Shown in pieces: positions 13,696 to 14,759 of a stretch of 64,000 nucleotides of DNA (the stretch's first letter is position 1; every line of letters starts with the position of its first letter). Location of the stretch: the NCBI RefSeq assembly GCF_900110755.1, contig NZ_FOFF01000051.1, forward strand, positions 1-64,000, written 5' to 3'. Source of the DNA: Streptomyces sp. yr375 (GTDB taxonomy: Bacteria; Actinomycetota; Actinomycetes; Streptomycetales; Streptomycetaceae). The translations under genes and the position numbers were made by a program. Under the pieces are notes generated by a model. That model ran no database searches. It was not told where the DNA came from and saw nothing but the letters and a program-made list of their open reading frames with translations.

Positions 13696-14280
13696 TCACC
13701 CCACCCCCGCCGCGAAGTGGCCGGTCAGCAGGCGTAGGCGTTGGTCGTGGGCGTGTTCAGGGAGGCGGCCGCTGCGCATCAGGGTCACCAGGCCGTGCAG
13801 GCCCGCCCAGTAGGTCTCCGTGAGGAGGCCCGCCTCGTCGTCCGTCGCCGCGAGCGGCGCGACCGCCGCCACCAGTTCGCCGAAGGCGTCCCACAGGGCG
13901 GCCGGGGCCTGCGCACTGGCGAACGGGAGGTTCACGGTGTGCGTGAACATCGCGTCGTACAGGGCGGGCCGGCGCCGCGCGAAGGCGGTGTACGCCTCGC
14001 CGACCGCCGCCAGCCCCGCGCGCGCGTCCGCCGCCCCGCTCCGCGCCGCCCGCAGCTCCGCCCCCAGCTCCGCGAAGCCCTCCACCGCGACCGCCGCCAT
14101 GATCGCGTCCTTGCCCTTGAAGTGGCTGTACAGGACGGGCTGGCTGTACTCGATCTCCGCCGCGAGGCGGCGGGTGGTGACCGCGTCCCAGCCCTCCGCC
14201 TCCGCCAGTGCACGAGCCGCCGTGACGATCAGTTGCTCGCGCTCCGCTCGTTCGCGCTCTCGGCGCGTCTGAATCGACAT
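13696..14280 (-). CDS. TetR-family transcriptional repressor
   Basis: This 194-residue protein has an N-terminal TetR helix-turn-helix (EGWDAVTTRRLAAEIEYSQPVLYSHFKGKDAIM) and a C-terminal ligand domain resembling the WHG/TetR_C group. The ATG at 14280 is preferred over an ATG at 14307, because the latter would place the first palindrome inside the coding sequence. It is divergent from the DUF4267 gene. The shared 107-bp region carries three copies of one palindrome, so it very probably represses both itself and its neighbour. The ligand is unknown. Confidence 0.9.
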   Translation of the reverse strand: MSIQTRRERERAEREQLIVTAARALAEAEGWDAVTTRRLAAEIEYSQPVLYSHFKGKDAIMAAVAVEGFAELGAELRAARSGAADARAGLAAVGEAYTAFARRRPALYDAMFTHTVNLPFASAQAPAALWDAFGELVAAVAPLAATDDEAGLLTETYWAGLHGLVTLMRSGRLPEHAHDQRLRLLTGHFAAGVG

Positions 14281-14290
14281 GCCTCGGATT

Positions 14291-14353
14291 CTAGCAGCGC
14301 TAGCCATTCTTTCGATGCTCTGTTAGCTTCGCTATTTCTGCTAGCGCCGCTAG
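14291..14353. promoter_or_regulatory. Three TetR-type operators, consensus CTAGC-N3-GCTAG
   Basis: Three 13-bp palindromes are seen: CTAGCAGCGCTAG at 14291-14303, TTAGCTTCGCTAT at 14323-14335 and CTAGCGCCGCTAG at 14341-14353. The first and third have perfect 5-bp arms and the middle one is slightly degenerate. Their centres are 32 and 18 bp apart. They fill the divergent TetR/DUF4267 promoter region, as expected for the operators of the adjacent repressor. Confidence 0.8.
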
Positions 14354-14387
14354 GGGCGCTGGAGAGCCACACCGAGAGGGATCCGTC

Positions 14388-14759
14388 GTGACCGTCACCG
14401 CCTACACCCTGGCCGCCGTGCTCGACCTGTTCATCCTGTTCATCGGGGCCCGCTTCCTGTTCCGGCCCGGCCCCGCCGCCGCCGGCTACGGCGTACCGGC
14501 CGACCCGACCGGCGACGCCGCCGCCTACCTCGCGATCAAGGGCGTCAGGGACGCCGCCCTCGGCGTCCTCGGACTGGCGCTGCTCGCCTTCGCCGGCGCC
14601 ACCGCCGGGGCCTGGTTCATGCTCTGCGCGGCGCTCGTGCCGCTCGGCGACACCGTGATCGTCCTGCGGCACGGCGGAACCAGGGCCGTCGCGTTCGGAA
14701 TCCACTTCGCCACGGCCGTCGTCGTACTCGTCAGCGCCGGACTGCTCTTCGCCGTCTGA
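14388..14759 (+). CDS. DUF4267-like four-helix membrane protein
   Basis: This 123-residue protein starts at GTG 14388. It has about four transmembrane helices and the GxxFLFRPGPAAAGYG and IKGVRDAALG segments seen in DUF4267 proteins, which are often paired with TetR regulators. Its role is unknown; a transport or membrane-stress role controlled by the divergent repressor is plausible. A short stem (CCGACCG/CGGTCGG, 14768-14784) follows the stop. Confidence 0.8.
   Translation: MTVTAYTLAAVLDLFILFIGARFLFRPGPAAAGYGVPADPTGDAAAYLAIKGVRDAALGVLGLALLAFAGATAGAWFMLCAALVPLGDTVIVLRHGGTRAVAFGIHFATAVVVLVSAGLLFAV

Follow-up and report, generated by a model that had tools for sequence, protein, structure and literature searches.

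The region between a TetR-family repressor gene and a divergently transcribed DUF4267 gene of Streptomyces sp. yr375, located within the 64,000-nucleotide stretch of DNA analysed here (the window), raises the question of how many of its palindromes are operators, which protein would recognise them and whether the same word leads to further target genes. A preliminary description of the region identified three palindromes of the form CTAGC-N3-GCTAG and regarded them as a three-site operator array. Two of these are indeed perfect, while the third is two mismatches away from that form and has 4-bp arms. The locus displays two conserved operator-like sites, most likely within an ordinary autoregulated divergent promoter, and there is no good case for a third site. 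The features of the region are listed below, where A loci are the orthologs (38 different loci, comprising the window and 37 others whose TetR is 66–82% identical to that of the window) and B loci are a second TetR group of 15 loci, 53–58% identical to the window TetR.

13696..14280, minus strand: TetR-family repressor gene, 194 aa, with TetR_N and TetR_C_33 domains; ATG at 14280 and not at the upstream 14307
14288..14293, minus strand: probable TetR-gene -10 TAGAAT, overlapping the proximal operator and preceded by TG; 9 of 12 in the promoter scan; present in 35/37 A loci with 50-bp spacing
14291..14303, no strand: putative TetR-proximal operator CTAGCAGCGCTAG; exact, with a single other exact copy in the genome; perfect in 38/38 A loci
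14301..14306, plus strand: possible DUF4267 -35 TAGCCA, overlapping the proximal operator, 17-nt spacer; weak match to consensus
14310..14315, minus strand: probable TetR-gene -35 TCGAAA from the promoter scan, 16-nt spacer
14323..14335, no strand: middle element TTAGCTTCGCTAT, holding the probable DUF4267 -10 TAGCTT (14324-14329); TANNNT in 53/53 loci, right arm GCTAG in 0/53
14341..14353, no strand: putative distal operator CTAGCGCCGCTAG; exact; perfect in 36/38 A loci, with a spacing of 50 bp to the proximal one in 37/38
14388..14759, plus strand: DUF4267 gene, 123 aa, GTG start (PF14087, 93.3 bits, gathering cut-off 27.8)

The proximal and distal palindromes are the only exact CTAGC-N3-GCTAG matches in the whole 9.07-Mb genome of Streptomyces sp. 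yr375. The centres of the two lie 32 and 18 bp from that of the middle element, as described before, and the reported rarity of CTAG is evident in the 64-kb window, with 11 copies observed against 78.4 expected; the 63 bp from 14291 to 14353 contain four copies of this tetranucleotide rather than the five originally counted. Dinucleotide shuffles of the window reached two matches at no more than one mismatch in 14 of 100 cases and thus the raw number of palindromes constitutes, on its own, weak evidence. A chance origin of the two perfect palindromes is untenable because they are the sole exact copies in 9.07 Mb, lie 50 bp apart and are conserved throughout the genus.

The TetR protein contains a TetR_N (PF00440) helix-turn-helix domain, scoring 48.7 bits against a cut-off of 24. 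The listed open reading frame starts at 14307, whereas the ortholog alignments begin with the ATG at 14280, thus placing the proximal site upstream of the gene and not inside it. The distance between this site and the TetR start is nearly constant, close to 9–10 nt (7–11 nt in those A loci that match from residue 1 onwards), whereas its distance to the partner gene varies among loci. Identification of the protein as a tetracycline repressor (NF010319) was rejected, as the match reaches 38.8 bits against a curated cut-off of 265 and comprises residues 13–67 only. On the opposite side of the region, GAGAGGG (14374-14380) is positioned ahead of the GTG start of the DUF4267 gene. The DUF4267 protein is hydrophobic by eye and its structure model is all-helical (pLDDT 94), with NACHO/TMEM35A as the best fold match (Z 12.0 against 9.4 for the next row, with 114 residues aligned at rmsd 2.5). 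This likeness, which Foldseek reports with an E of 0.07, provides no more than a hint of the fold in the case of a helical bundle and is not decisive.

Searches for relatives covered 199 genomes of the genus and 119 genomes of the order, partly the same genomes, and all locus counts refer to the loci retained by the search, a subset of all listed matches. The proximal site is perfect throughout the A loci and the distal site carries one mismatch in two of them, L006 and L027. The spacing of the pair, 50 bp in 37 of the 38, is 51 bp in L007. A DUF4267-type partner was read by sequence in 37/38 A loci, Pfam having been run on the partner in the window, and none was called in L204. In the B loci the best-fit spacing is 51 bp in 15/15, with two perfect copies in 13, one mismatch in L215 and two in L030. 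B loci such as L028 and L032 present the same operator pair next to a small protein of anthrone-oxygenase type, not DUF4267; the B partner belongs to the anthrone-oxygenase family in the two cases tested and looks alike in 13/15 loci, the exceptions being L034, where no partner was found, and L216, where the partner is DUF4267. L213, a B-type relative outside the family, showed no site in the sequence examined and is therefore not included among the B loci. The three central bases of the exact sites read R-N-Y in 74/74 A sites and 25/27 B sites, and the motif can thus be written as CTAGCRNYGCTAG.

The presence of the sites follows that of the repressor gene. With an A or B TetR counted as present at E < 1e-40, which applies to 107/199 genus genomes, at least two exact copies are found in 98/107 genomes with the TetR (nine have fewer) and in 9/92 without it. 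The corresponding Fisher value of 1e-34 overstates independence because the genomes are related, and the conservation in related species partly reflects common descent. The proposed tie between the palindromes and the adjacent TetR is borne out beside its orthologs, the 38 A loci having kept them. These comparisons strongly support the interpretation of the two palindromes as a putative operator pair for the adjacent TetR within the divergent promoter.

The TetR helix-turn-helix TTRRLAAEIEYSQPVLYSHFKGK aligns with that of the class D tetracycline repressor, retaining TTR...QPxLYxH. It is nearly invariant in 22 aligned A and B proteins, with the exception of L029, which looks frameshifted at this point. 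The TetR orthologs of L026, L029 and L206 look damaged, with apparent frameshifts and an internal TAG that may be sequencing errors, next to an unbroken operator pair. The excerpted text of PMC11686294 gives tetO2 as TCCCTATCAGTGATAGAGA, with the core CTATC-AGT-GATAG. The window operator core differs from this by one base per half, and the tetO2 centre AGT is also R-N-Y. The palindromes were not classified as tetO as such, since the core found is CTAGC-N3-GCTAG and not the CTATC-N3-GATAG of that excerpt, and are therefore termed tetO-like. The arrangement resembles Tn10 tetR/tetA, as far as the excerpts describe it, in that divergent genes for a repressor and a membrane protein enclose two palindromic operators (tetO1 and tetO2 in Tn10), and in the similar recognition helix and an operator core one base per half from that of tetO2. 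In contrast to Tn10, the operator base in CTA[G/T]C is G and not T, the spacing here is 50 bp, the repressor possesses TetR_C_33 instead of the tetracycline-repressor C-terminal domain, and the partner is DUF4267 rather than the TetA efflux pump. Similarly, divergent pairs of streptomycete TetR-family genes and their targets, as presented in parts of PMC3511530, have intergenic palindromes with one to three operators. Unlike the present locus, the portion of Table 2 considered contains no CTAGC-N3-GCTAG, and the text of that paper, as far as it was covered, gave 0 matches for CTAG at the start of a word. Literature searches, in which few subscription papers were covered, found no paper on DUF4267 by name, alone or with TetR. 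For CTAGC/GCTAG with TetR and Streptomyces none of the matches listed appeared related by title and the start of the abstract, and no paper on this TetR/DUF4267 pair was found in these searches.

Promoter elements can be proposed on both strands. The promoter scan identified TCGAAA-16-TAGAAT on the minus strand at 9 of 12, compared with a mean of 0.0 in shuffles. The -10 ends 7 nt before the ATG and the TetR message is thus probably leaderless. The candidate DUF4267 promoter (-35 TAGCCA, -10 TAGCTT) was missed by the same scan, its match to the consensus being poor, 7 of 12 by eye. TAGCCA occurs in 14/37 A loci with 50-bp spacing, and TAGACA, with an 18-bp spacer, in 12/15 B loci. A spacer of 17 bp in A and 18 bp in B would explain why the proximal site and the middle element are separated by 32 bp in the former and 33 bp in the latter. 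The region is, with good confidence, a small divergent promoter of the tetR/tetA type under autoregulation; operator binding, repression, promoter elements and the ligand step are what we infer from the sequence. A dimer of the TetR-family protein would bind the two 13-bp operators, CTAGCRNYGCTAG, which are spaced by 50 bp. Of these, the proximal one would cover the -10 of the repressor's own gene together with the probable -35 of DUF4267, and the distal operator would be located just after the DUF4267 -10, at or just downstream of the predicted transcription start. Binding of the dimer would thus shut off both divergent genes, and a ligand would release it from the operators. If so, the locus offers a precisely defined and testable putative operator that would govern a repressor gene together with DUF4267.

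The palindromes might instead serve another DNA-binding protein or form an RNA stem. A 5-bp stem followed by T's is conceivable, and the scan reports a terminator-like signal at the proximal site (shuffles: mean 0.0). This is highly improbable, however, given the 98/107 against 9/92 co-occurrence with the TetR gene and the occurrence of the sites beside TetRs of two groups that differ in their partner genes. A three-site array, with a third dimer on the middle element 18 bp from the distal site forming a cooperative complex, is unlikely, although less so. The operator-like TAGC-N3-GCTA in the window suggests such a site, as does the left arm CTAGC, which is intact in 27/38 A and 14/15 B loci and keeps a constant distance of 18 bp to the distal site; PMC3511530, in the part considered, provides a precedent in the divergent promoter of SCO7222, where three repeats give three complexes. 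Against this, the right arm GCTAG is intact in none of the 53 loci (38 A and 15 B), and at least two mismatches separate the element from the operator form in 52/53, L016 having one. The centre is R-N-Y in 4/38 A loci, compared with 74/74 exact A sites, and the one-base difference between A and B falls between the proximal site and the middle element, in agreement with a promoter spacer of 17 or 18 bp. TANNNT, in contrast, is present in 38/38 A and 15/15 B loci. The third site of the preliminary description has thus not been kept in the operator form of the other two, and we read the middle element mainly as the probable -10 of the DUF4267 promoter. The element may retain half an operator, particularly in B, and weak binding to it is conceivable, since the left arm is kept in most loci of both groups and all 15 B centres are R-N-Y.

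The palindrome word itself extends beyond this promoter. Many genomes possess a third exact copy ahead of an acyl-CoA dehydrogenase gene. In yr375, copies with one mismatch and an R-N-Y centre are found a short distance upstream of the genes for an acyl-CoA dehydrogenase (C42) and a thiolase (C54), with others just upstream of a TetR/acyl-CoA dehydrogenase gene pair and of an aldehyde dehydrogenase gene (C29). These copies would fit a wider regulon of the window TetR marked by the 13-mer, a reading that is nevertheless quite improbable, more so than the three-site array. Among 117 acyl-CoA dehydrogenase promoters (110 from the matches listed, comprising the 30 best and 80 hand-picked by TetR status, and seven preselected for an exact site), a site at no more than one mismatch is present in 60/70 with an A/B TetR and in 38/47 without it, or 57/67 and 34/43 when the seven loci fetched for the exact site are removed. 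Exact copies are found in 42/70 with and 20/47 without. The presence of an A/B TetR does not clearly predict the acyl-CoA dehydrogenase site. In a control with 60 permuted arms on the same 117 promoters CTAGC ranked best, with 98/117 at no more than one mismatch and a median of 1; TCGAC reached 61/117 and TGCAC 26, so that other conserved sequence can score high. Eight genomes that lack A/B TetRs, chosen solely because their acyl-CoA dehydrogenase site is exact, all contain three further conserved-looking sites of this kind (8/8).

One of these further sites adjoins, by coordinates, a second TetR in 8/8 of those genomes, and among the 12 of 30 kept loci whose genes were read, aldehyde dehydrogenase was found in five and thiolase in three of the eight genomes. 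The second TetR is present in 171/199 genus genomes (E up to 1e-70), together with an A/B TetR in 96/199, and its own promoter contains the site in 30/30 kept loci, with one mismatch in 29 and two in one. The acyl-CoA dehydrogenase, aldehyde dehydrogenase and thiolase sites thus most likely belong to this second TetR, being frequent in genomes without A/B TetRs and present throughout the promoters of the second TetR gene. In yr375 its gene lies at L071:2569-3219 and encodes a TetR_C_1 protein. Four sites like AACTAGCRNYGCTAGTT (L071:2535-2547, L071:5849-5861, L072:8233-8245 and L073:6206-6218) lie near acyl-CoA dehydrogenase, aldehyde dehydrogenase and thiolase genes, are conserved in the relatives checked and form a probable second TetR regulon. 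A genome search with the 13-mer, suggested earlier as a way to find the regulon, would therefore mislead, the conserved near matches being most likely those of another TetR; a word search for a regulon can gather the targets of another repressor.

The second TetR resembles the window repressor in having nearly the same core and an R-N-Y centre at its sites, and differs in its C-terminal domain, its targets, its TetR group and its flanking base. Reading outward from the core, the first flanking base is T in 177/182 half-sites at the 91 acyl-CoA dehydrogenase sites (163/168 without the seven preselected loci), compared with 4/202 half-sites of the A and B exact sites, a difference that also opposes a wider regulon of the window TetR. 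A promoter hexamer does not account for this T, since it is found at 86/91 sites on the gene-distal side alone. The difference in outward base between the two types of TetR site is a strong correlation and falls short of proof of specificity because the loci share ancestry and a single target underlies all the acyl-CoA dehydrogenase sites. A tentative proposal, perhaps somewhat short of an even chance, is that each of the 96/199 genomes holding both TetR kinds contains two tetO-like regulons that use nearly the same word CTAGCRNYGCTAG and are insulated mainly by this single outward base, T directing the acyl-CoA dehydrogenase-linked TetR and A, C or G the TetRs linked to DUF4267 or anthrone oxygenase. 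If true, the regulon pair would offer a naturally occurring case in which to examine how cross-talk between related repressors is prevented.

None of seven additional yr375 sites with one mismatch and an R-N-Y centre revealed a convincing extra target. According to a rough gene caller four are in called genes, of which L279 is beside a tRNA-like end, and three are outside; one of the latter has an apparently HxlR-like gene, judged by eye, as its neighbour, and another is inside a longer, different palindrome. A longer palindrome of yr375, GGTGCTAGCGTCACTAGCACC at L282:1001-1021, is apparently intergenic and probably a site of another regulator. In the acyl-CoA dehydrogenase promoters, such as those of L065 and L094, a TAACGTC-like block recurs about 15–20 bp upstream of the site.
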